The notes beneath the pieces were generated by a model. It was not told the origin of the DNA and did not search any database. It saw only the letters and a list, made by a program, of their open reading frames with translations. A DNA stretch of 43,863 nt from a virus, in the IMG/VR virus record IMGVR_UViG_3300001473_000111, positions 1 through 43,863 of that record, one strand, 5' to 3'. How positions within the stretch are numbered: position 1 is the first letter of the stretch; the number at the start of each line of letters is the position of its first letter. This document shows positions 30,291 through 36,987 of the stretch, piece by piece. The position numbers and the translations under genes were made by a program.

Positions 30291-30656
30291 ATGTTTTATT
30301 TCTTTCAAAGACTCTCATTCTTTATTCTTAGCGTTACATTACCGCTAATTCCTGCAAGTTCGCACTCTCAAATTGTGTACTCGAATTATTCTCAGTGTAA
30401 CTCGACAGAATATATTGACCTTTCCATTGAACTAGCTTGCCCAAAAGGACATGCATTCACCGGGTTACGATTTAGCGTGGGAACGAACGCCCTTGATCTA
30501 AAATTTACCGTGCGATGTTGCTTAGAAACTAGTATGCGCTACTACCGTTCATCTCGATTATTTGCGGACATTAATCTCGAGATATCAAGAACATGCGAAG
30601 AAAGCAGCGTCGCCGGTAGACCCAATTCTCGCGAAAGAAAACAACGAGCCCTGTAA
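30291..30656 (+). CDS. Small secreted protein of the Hint-peptidase cassette
   Basis: A 121-residue protein with an N-terminal signal peptide (MFYFFQRLSFFILSVTLPLI, probable cleavage near SSHSQ) and a mature part with about five cysteines (YSQCNSTEY, LACPKG, RCCLE, TCEE). No family is recognised. It is strongly AT-rich, reads against the late operon and lies 53 bp before the Hint protein, so it probably belongs to the same acquired cassette. Its SD sequence (AAGAGT) is weak and distant. A periplasmic partner or protective factor is possible, but nothing in the sequence proves it. Confidence 0.62.
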   Translation: MFYFFQRLSFFILSVTLPLIPASSHSQIVYSNYSQCNSTEYIDLSIELACPKGHAFTGLRFSVGTNALDLKFTVRCCLETSMRYYRSSRLFADINLEISRTCEESSVAGRPNSRERKQRAL

Positions 30657-30709
30657 TTGTATTTGCTGAGGTGAAAAGAAACAGTTCAATCTAGCATGGA
30701 GGAATTAAG

Positions 30710-32083
30710 ATGGCGATCCGACAATGTTTAGCAGCTCACTGCAGCGGGGCAGATCCAGAAATCTATCAGGTTTGCGTCCAGAACGGATTGCCCGCTGGAT
30801 ATCCAGTTTTGACCAAAGACGCTAACGGACCTTGCACTTGCTCATGCTCATGCCTCGCTTTTGGCACACCTGTTCAGATCGGAACGAACGCGTTTGAAGC
30901 TATTGAGAAGATAGAAACAGGTGGAACAGTGTTTGCTGCTGGTAAGGACCTCAATTGGGCTGAGCAGCCTGTCGAGTTTAGTCAAGGAACGACAGGCGCA
31001 TCACGTCAACCTTACACCGTATTGCTAGTTTACGAAGATCGCTTCCTGGCAGTTACTAGCGATCACGTGTTCCTTATGGCCGACAAGACACTCAAAAGAG
31101 CTGACAGGCTTGTTGTTGGTGACGAACTCTCGTCTCCAGATGGCGAGCCCGTTCCGGTCCGTTCAGTGCACGTCGGAGAATACACCGCAGGATTTCATCA
31201 TATCGCAACACGCAAAGAACTTCCTGACAAAAATTTGTCGGGTCATCTTCTCAATACAAACGGCGTCGTTAGCGCCGACTACATTGTTCAAATTTCCGCG
31301 CTGAGTGAAGAACTCAGAGAAGGGTTCGTAAAGGACCACGACAATTTGCCTGTTGTTGGATCTCCTGAGTATGTTGCAGCGTATGGAGATGCTTGTCTCC
31401 ACGAACCTGAGGAAATCGAAAAACTAACAATCACAACTATAAATATAAAAGAGGAAGCGGATACAGCCAAACCGGCATTTGTTTCTGCGAGCAATTTACG
31501 TCTTTCGATTCCTGAATATGCGCATGAGTTTATTTCTGCGAAGGAAGCAAAAGCTAAAGCCCTTGAACCAAAACGGCCATGGAATGATCCTCAGGCGCGA
31601 GAGTGGACTGAATACCTATTGACACATCATAGGACATACTATCCCAACGTAATTTACCATTTCGACTGGACCGACGATAACGTGAATGCCTTTGCGTGGG
31701 TTCAAAATGGCGTGCGCAACATAGCCATACTCGGAGGGCTTGTGCGTCACTTCGCAATGGAACTTGAAGGAATCGCATTAGTAATTGCGCATGAGTTGGC
31801 GCACCACTATGGGGGCCCCCCAACATTCCCTGGCGGCCTAACTTGCGAGGGTCAATCGGACTACCACGCCGTTCGCACAATCATGCGCCGAGTTTGGTTT
31901 GGAGAATACTACATCACGGTGTCGGATGAGGCGATTGATCAGTTGGCAAACTTCTTCGGCGTACCTAATGATCCTAATCCACCAGGCGGAAACGCAGGAT
32001 GCACACACCCACCCGGCGCATGTCGAATTGCCACCTATCACGCCGCGGTGAGCCTGTCTGGTCGACCAGGCTGCGCTGGATAA
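30710..32083 (+). CDS. Hint-domain protein fused to HExxH metallopeptidase
   Basis: A 457-residue protein with an unusual domain order. Residues 1-47 are Cys-rich (C6, C11, C22, C42, C44, C46). Residues 48-195 are a Hint (hedgehog/intein) domain: likely nucleophile C48 (CLAFGTPV), block B T116-x-x-H119 (VTSDHVFLM) and a typical end, GHLLNTNGVVSADY (178-191). A linker follows. Residues ~290-457 are a zinc peptidase with HELAH (361-365) and a probable third ligand E380 in CEGQSDYHAV. Hint domains cut or splice their own chain, so the peptidase may be released or activated by autoprocessing. A perfect GGAGGAATTAAG precedes the ATG. AT-rich, on the opposite strand to the late operon. Confidence 0.82.
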   Translation: MAIRQCLAAHCSGADPEIYQVCVQNGLPAGYPVLTKDANGPCTCSCSCLAFGTPVQIGTNAFEAIEKIETGGTVFAAGKDLNWAEQPVEFSQGTTGASRQPYTVLLVYEDRFLAVTSDHVFLMADKTLKRADRLVVGDELSSPDGEPVPVRSVHVGEYTAGFHHIATRKELPDKNLSGHLLNTNGVVSADYIVQISALSEELREGFVKDHDNLPVVGSPEYVAAYGDACLHEPEEIEKLTITTINIKEEADTAKPAFVSASNLRLSIPEYAHEFISAKEAKAKALEPKRPWNDPQAREWTEYLLTHHRTYYPNVIYHFDWTDDNVNAFAWVQNGVRNIAILGGLVRHFAMELEGIALVIAHELAHHYGGPPTFPGGLTCEGQSDYHAVRTIMRRVWFGEYYITVSDEAIDQLANFFGVPNDPNPPGGNAGCTHPPGACRIATYHAAVSLSGRPGCAG

Positions 32084-32087
32084 AGAC

Positions 32088-32576
32088 ATGCATGCGATCA
32101 ACGGCGAACTAGACCGCCTCAGAGATAAGATCGCAGAGAACTGCGGAGTGCCTTCCGAGGCACTCCCGATTAGTGTCGTAGCGAAAGCTGCCACCGAACC
32201 ATTGTTTCTGCATCATTTAGTGACAACTGCGGGAGACTCGTTTTTGTTTGATCTACTCGTGCAAAGTGAAGCATCGGCTCTTCAATCATGGCACGAAACT
32301 GTTAGACGCGATTCCGCCCTATTTGGATCATCAGCAAAGGCAGCACTTAAGTGGATTGCATCAGGCGCTAGGTTTGCATCGAAAGAAATAGTTAAGCTTC
32401 GACTGAAAACTTGTCGTTCGTGCCCGCATCGTAGAACCGCTCCACGAACGGGAATGTATGCGCTCATGAAATCTCAATATGTTTGCGAGCTTTGTGGGTG
32501 CGACATTGATAAGAAGGCAATTCTACTTAGCGAGAAATGCCCGGATACTGAGTATTCTGAAAATGGAAGATGGTGA
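32088..32576 (+). CDS. Zinc-ribbon protein of the Hint-peptidase cassette
   Basis: A 162-residue protein starting 4 bp after the Hint protein stop. The first ~105 residues are helical with no recognised fold (PLFLHHLVTTAGDSFLFDLL). The C terminus is a treble-clef-like ribbon: C-x2-C-P-H (CRSCPHRR), then C-x2-C-G-C (CELCGCDIDKKAIL), then a final CPDTEYSENGRW. The C-G-C-x4-K...C-P...W ending occurs in many small phage and bacterial zinc proteins. Tight linkage to the Hint peptidase suggests a partner, substrate or immunity protein; which one cannot be decided from sequence. Confidence 0.75.
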   Translation: MHAINGELDRLRDKIAENCGVPSEALPISVVAKAATEPLFLHHLVTTAGDSFLFDLLVQSEASALQSWHETVRRDSALFGSSAKAALKWIASGARFASKEIVKLRLKTCRSCPHRRTAPRTGMYALMKSQYVCELCGCDIDKKAILLSEKCPDTEYSENGRW

Positions 32577-32835
32577 AAGACTGGAAAGTGTCCGAGTATT
32601 TGACAATGGAGTTCGGTCTTTTGTGCCGCCTTGCTTTTGCTTTGAGATTCTTTCAAAACACGGCGAAAAGATTGGAATTGTTTCGAAGTTAGAGATAGTT
32701 GAAGTAGATCTTGCGGAGAAAGATGTGACAAATGGGCGAATATATGTTTCTGGCTTTATTAGGTCTTACAGTGTTGAAGAAACTGAATACCGTGCAGAAG
32801 AAGGTCTTTGTTTTGTTGTAACGCGTCGAGGGTAA
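32563..32835 (+). CDS. Small beta-rich protein ending the Hint-peptidase cassette
   Basis: A 90-residue acidic protein (MEDGERLESVRVFDNGVRSF) with alternating hydrophobic and charged stretches suggesting a small beta-barrel or sandwich (KIGIVSKLEIVEVDLAEK, RIYVSGFIRSYSVEETEY). The ATG at 32563 is taken because it overlaps the zinc-ribbon gene by 14 bp and the longer frame from 32479 would lie deep inside that gene. No family is recognised. Its size, acidity and last position after a peptidase gene resemble an immunity or inhibitor protein; that is inference. Confidence 0.6.
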   Translation: MEDGERLESVRVFDNGVRSFVPPCFCFEILSKHGEKIGIVSKLEIVEVDLAEKDVTNGRIYVSGFIRSYSVEETEYRAEEGLCFVVTRRG

Positions 32836-33261: not shown

Positions 33262-33867
33262 TCATCTCACCTTCTGGCATTTGTCAACCGGAACGAGCAA
33301 ACGCACCGACTGCCCCATCATGTCCGCCTCGGCTGTCACCATGCCTTTCGCTTCGTGATAACCGCTCACAAACGCCTCAAGCCTCTGGTAGTGCGGTGTC
33401 GTGATATGGATCTGCTCGCCGATGCTAAATGACTGAGGAACTTGATATTCCTGATCCGTCTGCGCCTTCCATGCCGCTTCCATGATCGCCCTCATTTCGC
33501 GCGCCGGCACAACATGCGGGCGCTTGTCGAAATGGAAGGTCAAAATGTTTTCCACACCGTCGCACTCGCGCACCGTTTCGGCGTATTGGCTGGCAGATCT
33601 GTCCAACGCAACGAACAGATACCGGGGAAAGAACGGCCGACTCGCATCAATCGTCTTGCTCGCGCGCCTGCGCCTGCGCGTGACGGGTTCCATTGGCCGG
33701 TAGGTGATCAACCCGGCTGAAGCCAGGCTCTTCATGGCGCGCTCTTCGCACGCGGGATTGGTCAGGATGACGATCCAGTCGAGCGAACGCACGCCGACCA
33801 ACGCATGCATCAAGGCGTAGTCCTGCTTGAGGGCCGCGGTCACAGGGATGGTTCCAATCTGGCTCAT
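33262..33867 (-). CDS. NusG-like transcription antitermination protein
   Basis: A 201-residue paralogue of NusG. The NGN domain spans about residues 28-125 (LDWIVILTNPACEERAMKSL, then SRPFFPRYLFVALDR). A C-terminal KOW-type domain covers about 145-200 (FSIGEQIHITTPHYQRLEAF). NGN binds RNA polymerase and makes it processive. The ATG at 33867 is chosen because it overlaps the previous stop (ATGA); the longer frame runs into that gene. As last gene of the leftward early operon and upstream of the late genes, it occupies the position of lambda Q. Internal late terminators support a role as late antiterminator. Confidence 0.83.
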   Translation of the reverse strand: MSQIGTIPVTAALKQDYALMHALVGVRSLDWIVILTNPACEERAMKSLASAGLITYRPMEPVTRRRRRASKTIDASRPFFPRYLFVALDRSASQYAETVRECDGVENILTFHFDKRPHVVPAREMRAIMEAAWKAQTDQEYQVPQSFSIGEQIHITTPHYQRLEAFVSGYHEAKGMVTAEADMMGQSVRLLVPVDKCQKVR

Positions 33868-35198
33868 TCTGCGGCCTGCTTTCGTGTGTTCGTCTCGTAT
33901 TCGGTTTCGAAGCGGGCCATTGCCGCCCGCACAGCTTCCAAATTGCTCGAGTGAACGCCCGGCGGATCTGTTGTTGTCGGCATCCAGACCCAGTCCGGAC
34001 AATCCCGATCTTCGCCGAACCACGGCCATCCACGCTCTGCGTGCAACACCTTCCAAGCCTGCCAAAGGTTAGAGCCATTCGCGACCTTGCCGAACAGCTC
34101 CAACAGCGGAGCCAATGATGGATCGGCCTGAACGCCGAGGTGCCGTTGAACAGCCCGTTCGTGCATCGTGTTGACCTGCGGCCAGCCTTCTTTGGCCCGC
34201 TTTTCGCGAAGCAGCTCGTCCCGGCTGTACAACCCATTTGCAACAAGCCGCTCCTGCGTCATGGTGAGTTTCGGCGGCGGTCCCTTGGGCTCTTGCAGCA
34301 GTTTTGCGAGCCGCACCGCACCCCATGCTTTGCCGAAAGGTGGCGCTGCTTCCACCTCCCCGCCCTGCTCCGCCTTCCCGAAGTCTTTGGGAGCCTCCAT
34401 CCAAAGTTTTTCGGCGAGATAAGAAGATGGCGCCGGGAAATGATCTTTGCTCTGCGATCTCAAAAGCGCGATCCAGTCATCCCGCCTTTCAAGAGCTTCA
34501 AGCTGTTCGTCTGGCGTCAACTTCTCAAATTCGCGGATTGCATTTCGCAGCGAACTCCCCCTGTTTCCAGGCCAGCCCTCGACCAAAGAATTGAAGATCC
34601 GGTTCGCTTTCGCAGCAGGTAGATGTTTCACAGCCGGCAAGCCCGCGCTTTCTTCGTCGCGCTCGCGTGCGCCCTCTCTCTCTATTAACAAGGGGTCGTT
34701 AAGAGGGGTCGTTAACATAGGTGCCGACTCTGGACCGGCAGGGGGTGCCGACTCTGGACCGGCAGGGGGTGCCGACTCTGGACCGGCAGGGGGTGCCGAT
34801 ATATCGGCAGGGGTGCCGACTGACCGGCACGCTAATTTTGACGATGTTTCACGGAGCGCGACGTCGTCGTCCCGGTCTGTATCCACCAGTTGAACAGTCG
34901 AAACATCCTCGTGTACCGGGTCCAAGATCACGCGATAGAGGTGCGAGCTATCCCGACCGCTATCCGTCTCTTGATGAAATTGCTCCAAATAGCCTTGCCG
35001 CGTCAGCCGACCGATGGCTGCCTGAACCGTAGAACGCGCACAATCCATCTCACGTGCCATCTTTACCTGTGAGCGACGGCACCAACCAAGCTCGTCCGTA
35101 TGACGGCCGAGCACGCACAGCACCTGCAAATCGCGCGGCTTCAACTCCGGATCTGTGGCGGCACGCGCCGGGATAATTGAAAGCCGTGGCGCCCTCAT
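33864..35198 (-). CDS. Helix-turn-helix replication-type protein
   Basis: A 444-residue protein. Residues ~20-90 form a winged helix typical of phage replication initiators and plasmid Rep-like regulators (LKPRDLQVLCVLGRHTDELG, MDCARSTVQAAIGRLTRQGY). A variable proline-rich linker follows with a perfectly repeated octapeptide unit SAPPAGPE. The C-terminal half is helical (IFNSLVEGWPGNRGSSLRNA, REFEKLTPDEQLEALERRDD) and resembles the C-terminal part of phage DnaT/O-like proteins. It may start phage DNA replication. It overlaps neighbours on both sides by 4 bp. No helicase or primase motif is seen in this window. Confidence 0.7.
   Translation of the reverse strand: MRAPRLSIIPARAATDPELKPRDLQVLCVLGRHTDELGWCRRSQVKMAREMDCARSTVQAAIGRLTRQGYLEQFHQETDSGRDSSHLYRVILDPVHEDVSTVQLVDTDRDDDVALRETSSKLACRSVGTPADISAPPAGPESAPPAGPESAPPAGPESAPMLTTPLNDPLLIEREGARERDEESAGLPAVKHLPAAKANRIFNSLVEGWPGNRGSSLRNAIREFEKLTPDEQLEALERRDDWIALLRSQSKDHFPAPSSYLAEKLWMEAPKDFGKAEQGGEVEAAPPFGKAWGAVRLAKLLQEPKGPPPKLTMTQERLVANGLYSRDELLREKRAKEGWPQVNTMHERAVQRHLGVQADPSLAPLLELFGKVANGSNLWQAWKVLHAERGWPWFGEDRDCPDWVWMPTTTDPPGVHSSNLEAVRAAMARFETEYETNTRKQAAE
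34720..34791 (-). repeat. Three perfect 24-bp in-frame repeats
   Basis: Three identical tandem 24-bp units, GGTGCCGACTCTGGACCGGC plus AGGG, are followed by a partial, diverged copy to about 34811. They encode repeated SAPPAGPE in the linker of the HTH protein at 33864-35198. Identity at the DNA level indicates recent expansion. As multiples of eight codons they change only linker length. Confidence 0.88.
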
Positions 35199-35518
35199 TC
35201 CGCCGCCTCCTCGGGTTGCGGCGACGCGGAACTATGAGCCGTTGTGACATCGGGAAAATCGAAGGCGAACGTGACCGTCATCAGTCCGCCGATGTTGCTG
35301 GCATGAATCAGCCGCAGCCAATGCAGCGCCCAGAGCGGACCCCACAAATGCACAGGATGGCAACCAAGATCATCCGCAAGCGTTTGTGTAGGTAATGTCA
35401 ACGGCCCATCTTCGTGGCGCTTCGCCAAAGCCTCCAAGACGGACCAGCGCTGACATGGTGTCGGCAGGCACAGCGCATCCGCCTGCGCTTCGACCCATTG
35501 TTCCGCGCGCGCGCTCAT
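35195..35518 (-). CDS. Small hypothetical protein, winged-helix-like
   Basis: A 107-residue protein starting MSARAEQWVEAQADALCLPT. A central segment (WSVLEALAKRHEDGPLTLPT, QTLADDLGCHPVHLWGPLWA) resembles a small winged helix that might bind DNA. The ATG at 35518 follows AAGGGTAGCGGC. The stop overlaps the start of the replication-type protein (ATGA). Its upstream side now faces a rightward cassette that begins at 35665. Function is unknown; a regulatory partner for the replication protein is possible. Confidence 0.65.
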   Translation of the reverse strand: MSARAEQWVEAQADALCLPTPCQRWSVLEALAKRHEDGPLTLPTQTLADDLGCHPVHLWGPLWALHWLRLIHASNIGGLMTVTFAFDFPDVTTAHSSASPQPEEAAE

Positions 35519-35591
35519 GCCGCTACCCTTCGGTTGCGGGCCTGTGCACACCTTTTTCGCGAGAACTCTGTCTTCTTGCGCTTGTTCGCGA

Positions 35592-35611
35592 TTTTCGCCA
35601 AGTTATGCAAC
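35592..35611. promoter_or_regulatory. Shared cassette-boundary sequence, copy A
   Basis: TTTTCGCCAAGTTATGCAAC, preceded by CTTGTTCGCGA, resembles the sequence before the cassette at 37110 (CTTGTCCGCGCA then TTTCGTCAAGTTGC) and, less closely, the one before 38146. Between it and the gene lies an inverted repeat CGTGAG-N12-CTCACG at 35615-35640. This may be a shared promoter/operator or an old operon junction. Confidence 0.45.
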
Positions 35612-35664
35612 TCAAGCGTGAGCGAATTAAACTTCTCACGATACCGACCTGGGGTGAGCCTCAA

Positions 35665-36987
35665 ATGACACGGATCACAACCGATCTCACAGTTAAAAAT
35701 GTTCCTAGAACACAAAGGAGTAGTAAAGTAGAAACCCAAGAAAATGTCATAAATTTTCTTGAGAATAACTATATTGGTTTTTTTGAAAAGTTTGCAGTTG
35801 AATTTAATTACAACAAAATCAAAGGATTTCGGGTTTCCAGTCACGACCAATACGTGCAACTGACCGCTATTATTGCGAATTACATCCTGCAAGAAGCGCG
35901 CAGCAACGAAATAAAATTGCGCGATAATAAAGTATATTTTATCGACAATCCCGGAAAGAGCGCTACAAGAATACCAATTTTTAATTTCGAAGAATTTGAT
36001 TTGAGCCAACCAATGGAGACATATACAAATCAATATTTCAGAGAAATAGTAGAACATTATGGAAGTATTGCAAATAGTATCATCAGAACTATAGAAGAAC
36101 CTAGTTACATTGACAATCAACGTGATGGTCAGATAGGCCCGCACCCACAAAACCATGACGCTGAGAGCGAGCGCAGCACACTGAGATTGCAACTGGCTGC
36201 CATCTCCAAACGCCTTGACGCTCTTGAAAGCGCGCCCTCCCTGGATGATGAACTCGCACTCGCTAAGGAGGATTTTTCGACACTCGTCCAGAACGAAAAT
36301 ATGAAAGTTAAAGAGACTATTCGCATATTCGATGAGCAATCCAAGGCGTTCCGTGACGAGCACATGAATACTCTTGCAGGTGCCGTCAAGGACGAGCTCA
36401 CGATGCTGGAAGATGGCCGAGCGGAGCACTTCGGAAAGATAGCTGATCAGCTTGAGGCAGAACGCGCGAACGTCGTTGAAAGCGCAAGAAGTGAAATTGA
36501 AAAATACAAACGCGAAGCGGGTGCGACACTTGTTGTAAAAAAGGCATACGAACTCTGGAACGAAAAGGCTGGCGCGCATAGACGGTTGTTCTTTGTCACA
36601 GCGTCTCTTTTTTCGTTCTTGGTAGTCGCGGCCATCGGGTTTCCGATAGTCTATTGGAATATCATTTCTAGCGAGATTTTGAGACTTGAGCCGCTCTTTC
36701 AAGGGCACGTGTTTGGAGCCGTCGTCCTCATTTTGATACCAGTGCTCGGCGTGGCTTGGGTCCTTCGCCTCCTTAGCAGGTTTACTATTCAGAACATGAT
36801 GCTCGCTGACGACGCGCAATTGCGGCGCGTGATGGCGGAAACTTATGTGCGCTTGGTTTCCGAGGACGCAATCAAGGATCCTGAAGATAGAGCAATCATT
36901 TTGTCGGCTTTGTTCAGACCCTTGCCTGGAACGACAAGTGAAGACATTAGCCCACCCAGCATCACTGATGTTTTGAAAGGCAAATGA
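35665..36987 (+). CDS. Membrane-anchored coiled-coil protein (DUF6161-like), cassette A
   Basis: A 440-residue protein. The N-terminal ~150 residues are a soluble domain, followed by a charged coiled coil (~165-290, LRLQLAAISKRLDALES). Two membrane helices lie at about 305-330 and 350-370 (FGAVVLILIPVLGVAWVLRL). The C-terminal block, TIQNMMLADDAQLRRVMAET then DRAIILSALFRPLPG, closely parallels the protein at 38146; I associate it with DUF6161. GGGGTGAG 6-8 nt upstream supports the ATG at 35665 over longer frames. It is AT-rich and reads against the early operon, so a moron. Defence or superinfection exclusion is possible but unproven. Confidence 0.8.
   Translation: MTRITTDLTVKNVPRTQRSSKVETQENVINFLENNYIGFFEKFAVEFNYNKIKGFRVSSHDQYVQLTAIIANYILQEARSNEIKLRDNKVYFIDNPGKSATRIPIFNFEEFDLSQPMETYTNQYFREIVEHYGSIANSIIRTIEEPSYIDNQRDGQIGPHPQNHDAESERSTLRLQLAAISKRLDALESAPSLDDELALAKEDFSTLVQNENMKVKETIRIFDEQSKAFRDEHMNTLAGAVKDELTMLEDGRAEHFGKIADQLEAERANVVESARSEIEKYKREAGATLVVKKAYELWNEKAGAHRRLFFVTASLFSFLVVAAIGFPIVYWNIISSEILRLEPLFQGHVFGAVVLILIPVLGVAWVLRLLSRFTIQNMMLADDAQLRRVMAETYVRLVSEDAIKDPEDRAIILSALFRPLPGTTSEDISPPSITDVLKGK

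Follow-up and report, generated by a model that had tools for sequence, protein, structure and literature searches.

A Hint-metallopeptidase protein with a linked zinc-ribbon partner in a phage of a soil bacterium: a candidate self-processing effector cassette

In polymorphic toxins a Hint domain may stand just before the C-terminal toxin. The 2012 survey of these systems never saw HINT associated with PVC systems and treated HINT and the PVC-metallopeptidase as alternatives that exclude each other (Zhang et al., 2012; PMC3482391). Inteins have a C-terminal Asn, the Thr and His of block B and assisting residues in block F; BILs lack a +1 nucleophile, and one BIL has Tyr at +1 (PMC4031507). According to titles in the reference list of that paper, inteins with Asp ends have been studied and disulphide-switched inteins are known. 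The main text of a Tc toxin survey makes no mention of Hint, peptidase or zinc (PMC7861908). Here we describe a gene cassette in the virus record IMGVR_UViG_3300001473_000111 (43,863 bases; this whole stretch is called the window), in which one protein, HintPep, joins a Hint domain to a predicted M48-type zinc peptidase and is followed by a zinc-ribbon protein, ZnR, and a 90-residue protein, P0004. The carrier is a phage of a soil bacterium. We read the cassette as encoding a self-processing effector of polymorphic-toxin type, with a probability of about 0.5. No published description of it was found in the open-access literature, nor any paper there that deals with DUF6171 or that links Hint to contractile injection systems or to Tc toxins.

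The features of the locus are listed below.

HintPep, 30710..32083, + strand: 457 aa; Cys-rich leader, Hint domain and predicted M48-type metallopeptidase; 29 distinct homologous copies.
Leader of HintPep (residues 1-47), 30710..30850, + strand: from family alignments; C6, C11, C22, C42, C44 and C46 nearly or fully invariant.
Hint domain of HintPep (C48-D190), 30851..31279, + strand: from VIA-align, Foldseek and Pfam matches in members.
Predicted M48-type peptidase domain of HintPep (residues 262-457), 31493..32080, + strand: from Pfam PF01435 and a weak match to 3c37; contains HELAH (361-365) at 31790-31804 and E380 at 31847-31849.
ZnR, 32088..32576, + strand: 162-aa helical protein with a C-terminal zinc ribbon; partner of HintPep.
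P0004, 32563..32835, + strand: 90 aa; seen only in standalone cassettes; candidate immunity protein.
P0001, 30291..30656, + strand: 121 aa with a probable signal peptide; lies upstream and is not conserved together with the cassette.

The ZnR gene starts after a gap of 4 bp from HintPep and overlaps P0004 by 14 bp. The group has a GC content of 44–48% versus ~60% in the surrounding DNA, and its strand opposes the late operon, whose terminase, portal and tail genes (PHROG matches) lie on the minus strand. An earlier note, made from the sequence alone, had described the four frames, their spacings, C48, T116/H119, HELAH at 361-365 and CEGQSDYHA (E380) and had called the group AT-rich and opposed to the late operon. 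All of these were found as it gave them.

An AlphaFold model of HintPep was built on a 22-sequence alignment (pLDDT 84, pTM 0.74), and it bears out the Hint fold that had been proposed. Residues 48..190 of the model span solved inteins from first to last residue in VIA-align (Z 11–16; best example Z 15.9 over 132–136 residues at 1.7–1.8 A), and Foldseek matches to BIL2 and other inteins have E values down to 1.9e-9. Since this segment aligns on complete inteins, C48 falls on the nucleophile, D190 on the terminal Asn position and Y191 on +1. In the model C48 is intein Cys1 and T116/H119 are block B; by our reading of the alignment, H179 would be the block F His and Y191 the +1 residue. With the fold modelled from Cys1 to the terminal residue, a nucleophile and a block B TxxH, HintPep is placed by the model in the Hint/intein superfamily. 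Pfam gave no Hint family match with the HintPep sequence alone; in 22 relatives it matched PT-HINT (eight), Hint (six, best 7.9e-6), Hint_2 (four, best 6.8e-7) and Intein_splicing (three). C48 is kept in 29/29 full-length copies and D190 in all 26 copies in which the position was examined. Like BIL2 (6y75) and the C. thermocellum BIL (2lwy), HintPep shows the fold, the extent and the nucleophile position of these domains, and its +1 Tyr is a non-nucleophile as in BILs; unlike them, it has a C-terminal Asp preceded by Ala/Gly and a conserved cysteine run CxCxCxC (C42-x-C44-x-C46-x-C48) that ends in the Hint nucleophile.

No residues in the HintPep family as a whole are more conserved than the leader cysteines, C48 and D190, and the leader cysteines and C48 persist in all clades, including copies that have lost HExxH or the block B His. 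This pattern would suit a leader that is itself the functional product, with Hint cleavage releasing or modifying the 47-residue, six-cysteine peptide as Hedgehog Hint does its N-terminal partner, and with the peptidase secondary. Hedgehog Hint (1at0, 6tyy; PF01079) shares the fold and is among the close matches of the model (VIA-align Z 14.8–15.3), as is also reflected in the Pfam Hint matches given above. However, no sterol-recognition extension is evident after the Hint domain, as read from the domain layout, and a peptidase is found there instead; the leader is modelled with low confidence (pLDDT about 58–67); and several Hint-only paralogues keep the leader despite the loss of C48. We regard a leader product as very doubtful. 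The Hint-only paralogues adjoin full cassettes (L024:13064-15797, L028:12315-13118, L027:8291-9334 and L002:12685-13350); they have a Cys-rich leader and no peptidase, and most are without C48.

The C-terminal domain, for which a zinc peptidase had been claimed, is predicted to be of the M48 type. HintPep matches Pfam PF01435 (M48) with 24.5 bits (cutoff 20.3), as do 13 of the 22 relatives. The motifs VNAFA, GGL, AHELAH and CEGQSDY follow one another in the M48 order (VNAxA, GGL, AHExxH, ExxxD), and the solved M48 protein 3c37 matches weakly in sequence (E 0.023) over the VNAFA and HExxH motifs. The fold-match list of the HintPep model was filled by the Hint domain, the peptidase side giving only weak MATCAP rows in Foldseek, and the geometry of the zinc ligands was judged from the order of helices alone. 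Unlike M48 peptidases, HintPep is fused to Hint, has no membrane segments noted and has lost HExxH in most of its Tc- or particle-linked relatives. Among the latter the motif is retained solely in two Chitinophaga copies and in Splendidivirga. In the clade of standalone cassettes, to which the window belongs, C48, T116, H119, D190, H361, E362, H365 and E380 are intact in nine of nine members. A free-standing peptidase of the same M48-type family, with HETGHH and without Hint, is found in an alphaproteobacterium (G378, L057:7013-8086); it lies in an A+T-richer patch beside a 167-aa gene of unknown function.

ZnR was modelled with confidence (pLDDT 89), and a Foldseek search of the model against solved folds gave no match. 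Its zinc-ribbon residues are C109, C112, C133, C136, C138 and C151, its C terminus is RW, and 14 of 22 members match DUF6171. The linkage between the two genes is tight: ZnR adjoins HintPep in 29/29 distinct copies (in reversed order, ZnR first, in L017), and 22/22 ZnR copies in 20 carrier genomes adjoin a HintPep. Only one HintPep lacks ZnR: it arose by recent duplication (98.7% identity) and lies on a Streptomyces canus plasmid that also bears a complete cassette. ZnR homologues were also found beside other proteins. In an alphaproteobacterium (G368, L055:3708-7894) a full-length homologue lies 2 bp after an RHS/TcB-like protein with a PT-HINT domain near its C terminus (E 5.8e-14), and no Hint-peptidase protein is present there. 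On Sinorhizobium meliloti plasmid pB (L050:3286-5270) the gene of a ZnR homologue overlaps that of an enzyme of the phosphoesterase family (phospholipase C-like), again without HintPep; this pair sits downstream of a large Ig-domain protein. ZnR beside an RHS-PT-HINT toxin and a phosphoesterase points to a partner shared by effectors, and the effector reading of HintPep rests chiefly on this. Because ZnR is also kept beside dead peptidases, a role as adaptor or chaperone would fit better than immunity, and we consider a strict immunity function less likely.

The earlier note had cast the small proteins as immunity proteins or targets and had expected both downstream genes to travel with HintPep. 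Both genes do co-occur with it, ZnR beside every distinct copy and P0004 in the standalone clade. P0004, with the motif DNGxRSF(V/I)PPxxxF, is present with the nine standalone members and with none elsewhere. It is the sole small protein with the distribution expected of an immunity protein, and by that distribution it is a candidate for the role. A PADLOC match of P0004 to GajB (12 bits) was judged to be due to chance. P0001, an orphan with cysteines and a likely signal peptide, had been counted as a member of the group; it has no homologue in any related locus, plasmid collection or phage collection and was rejected as a cassette member.

The nine standalone copies form a monophyletic clade (support 100/100). 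Their loci consist of HintPep-ZnR-P0004 with neighbours that are not shared among members, and no tRNA gene was found beside them. Most of the other relatives directly follow TcA, often before or near TcB-TcC, and the TcA profile was confirmed in four carriers (G007, G012, G015 and G020). HintPep is not itself a TcA, TcB or TcC subunit; none of the four proteins of the cassette region matched these families in Pfam, NCBIfam and PHROGs. Three actinobacterial copies (L059:8095-18983, L058 and L003) lie in operons with baseplate J, baseplate hub and gp25-like baseplate genes and weak sheath matches. Here HintPep-ZnR is placed between a laminin-G, lectin-type fibre-like protein and a ~1300-aa AHH nuclease protein. 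Most particle genes of these operons are without Pfam match. The eCIS_core profile is absent from one carrier (G014) and is found in another (G017) on contigs other than that of HintPep. We therefore describe the operons as contractile tail-like, PVC/eCIS proper not being established. Tc loci, contractile particles with an AHH nuclease and RHS-PT-HINT proteins are all contexts of toxin delivery and, as gene neighbourhoods, support a polymorphic-toxin-like reading.

The same neighbourhoods could be explained if HintPep and ZnR were accessories with a structural or maturation role in injection particles, such as processing or capping a fibre or TcA subunit, and if the standalone clade had reused the protease for housekeeping or maturation, so that the peptidase is no toxin. 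In particle loci HintPep always stands immediately after TcA or the fibre gene, Tc-linked members bear a C-terminal Ig-like Big_5 domain, some Tc loci apparently hold just TcA-HintPep-ZnR within the fetched flank (L015), and HExxH is often lost while the cysteines of leader and Hint persist. An accessory role nevertheless appears unlikely to us: ZnR also partners an RHS-PT-HINT toxin, particle genes are absent near the standalone clade, and the cassette in the phage is far from the tail operon and opposite to it.

The 29 distinct full-length copies were collected from plasmids, genome contigs, additional hits of the ZnR search and one further alphaproteobacterium; collection scans need short conserved stretches, which leads to an undercount, and in high-G+C loci genes were called with simple rules. 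Copies occur in Pseudomonadota, Actinomycetota, Bacteroidota, Bacillota and Planctomycetota, and relatives with 51–74% identity are found in Rhizobium, Mesorhizobium, Nitrospirillum, Streptomyces, Nonomuraea and Nocardiopsis. They are rare (3/385 and 2/395 genomes of two classes, seeds included). The observed features lie far beyond chance, and purifying selection is shown by the coding-sequence comparison of the window with its nearest relative (pN/pS 0.17/0.84). In Nocardiopsis a broken second HintPep between an intact copy and ZnR (L012:5453-6480) is a remnant of tandem duplication. In one Mesorhizobium strain (L026:8351-9858) genes for a LuxR-type regulator and a LuxI-type autoinducer synthase are directly upstream of the cassette and co-directional, which suggests quorum control in that strain.

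The group had been presented as a phage system. By PHROG matches it lies within phage DNA rather than a host flank, since it has integrase, tail, portal and terminase genes on one side and a NusG-like antiterminator and a replication initiator on the other. No second viral copy was found in IMG/VR or among INPHARED phages by single-protein and alignment scans (in IMG/VR the method depends on short conserved stretches, and absence is therefore unproven). With the window copy the only viral one found and relatives in bacteria of five phyla, the cassette is not phage-specific; it is a rare, mobile cassette of bacteria that has turned up in a phage once. The NusG-like antiterminator (33262-34065; phrog_6386, E 6.5e-19) adjoins the cassette, and a 530-aa open reading frame without PHROG match lies in an A+T-richer early region (35395-36987). 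Scans for promoters, terminators and repeats around the cassette gave chance-level results only.

The moron-like position in the phage, the A+T-rich composition and the sporadic, horizontally moved distribution are features that an intracellular defence or superinfection-exclusion system would also show. The peptidase might then be kept inactive by the Hint domain until self-cleavage is set off by infection or redox stress, with ZnR and P0004 as sensor and inhibitor; the lack of an export signal in HintPep and the restriction of P0004 to peptidase-active standalone copies agree with this. On the other side, no PADLOC model matched except for the weak GajB hit of P0004, no defence-island neighbours were recognised by eye, relatives are located in loci of secreted weapons, and the Mesorhizobium copy after the LuxR-LuxI pair is better suited to a public weapon. 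A defence function is thus rather unlikely in our estimate.

We return to the reading of HintPep as a self-processing effector. Its Hint domain (48-190) precedes a C-terminal effector candidate (the peptidase, 262-457), the arrangement known from polymorphic toxins. Like PT-HINT toxins (PF07591), it has Hint directly before the C-terminal domain, some members match PT-HINT, and a ZnR homologue adjoins an RHS-PT-HINT protein. Unlike them, it has a Cys-rich leader in place of a long stalk and occurs in contractile-particle operons. No trafficking or repeat family was found in the cassette proteins (Pfam, NCBIfam, PHROGs), only the 47-residue leader precedes Hint, and there is no His-Asn end; for these reasons HintPep is not filed as a classical PT-HINT member.

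Several observations weigh against the effector reading. The Hint domain ends in Ala/Gly-Asp190 followed by Tyr191 instead of His-Asn with a +1 Cys/Ser/Thr, and by its sequence HintPep is not a splicing intein. The polymorphic-toxin analogy drawn in the earlier note is thus supported in part, by the domain order, the co-occurring downstream genes and the contexts of relatives. Many Tc- or particle-linked members have Gln or Thr in place of H119. HExxH is lost in 17/29 copies, all of them Tc- or particle-linked, which indicates that the peptidase is dispensable there; of the two catalytic motifs that had been expected to be conserved, C48 is invariant, and HExxH is intact as a group in the standalone nine. 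No signal peptide or trafficking domain is evident in HintPep, no delivery gene adjoins the standalone copies, TcA is absent from 6/7 and eCIS_core from 7/7 of the standalone carrier genomes tested. HintPep of the window and of L008 are 74% identical and the partners 43% and 37%, which makes the effector the more conserved protein. Toxicity is predicted from architecture and context.

In the proposed mechanism HintPep would be synthesized as a precursor that ZnR, as a dedicated intracellular adaptor or chaperone, holds or loads, perhaps through contact of the zinc ribbon with the Cys-rich leader. The Hint domain would cut at C48 via an N-S acyl shift, and perhaps also after D190, separating leader, Hint domain and peptidase. 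With Asp in place of His-Asn at the Hint end, release of the peptidase by C-terminal cleavage is plausible, not established. The freed M48-type peptidase would attack a target protein, and P0004 would likely confer immunity in the peptidase-active standalone form. Where HintPep and ZnR lie in Tc and tail-like loci, the injection particle may carry them as cargo or use them as an accessory. The standalone copy of the phage is a probable lysogenic-conversion gene set, which may benefit the lysogen.

HintPep and its relatives are probably an undescribed family of self-processing effector proteins. Because the CxCxCxC run ends in the nucleophile, redox or zinc gating is suggested, and the known disulphide-switched inteins help this idea. 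More tentatively, a metal- or redox-sensing cysteine cluster may gate an Asp-ending, intein-like self-cleavage, with a dedicated zinc-ribbon adaptor that free-standing mobile cassettes have in common with Tc toxins, RHS toxins and contractile particles; the peptidase would be one passenger that can be exchanged, and such an effector family would be undescribed. HINT and the metallopeptidase of contractile systems never co-occurred in the 2012 survey; here one protein holds a Hint and a predicted metallopeptidase domain, also in contractile-particle operons. The cassette is small and complete, so that gating of self-cleavage by redox state or zinc could be tested on it directly in the laboratory, and the ZnR gene offers a new marker for finding effectors. 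Through this finding a Hint-metallopeptidase fusion becomes known that has a zinc-ribbon partner in strict linkage and turns up repeatedly, across five phyla, next to injection machines that are unrelated to one another.
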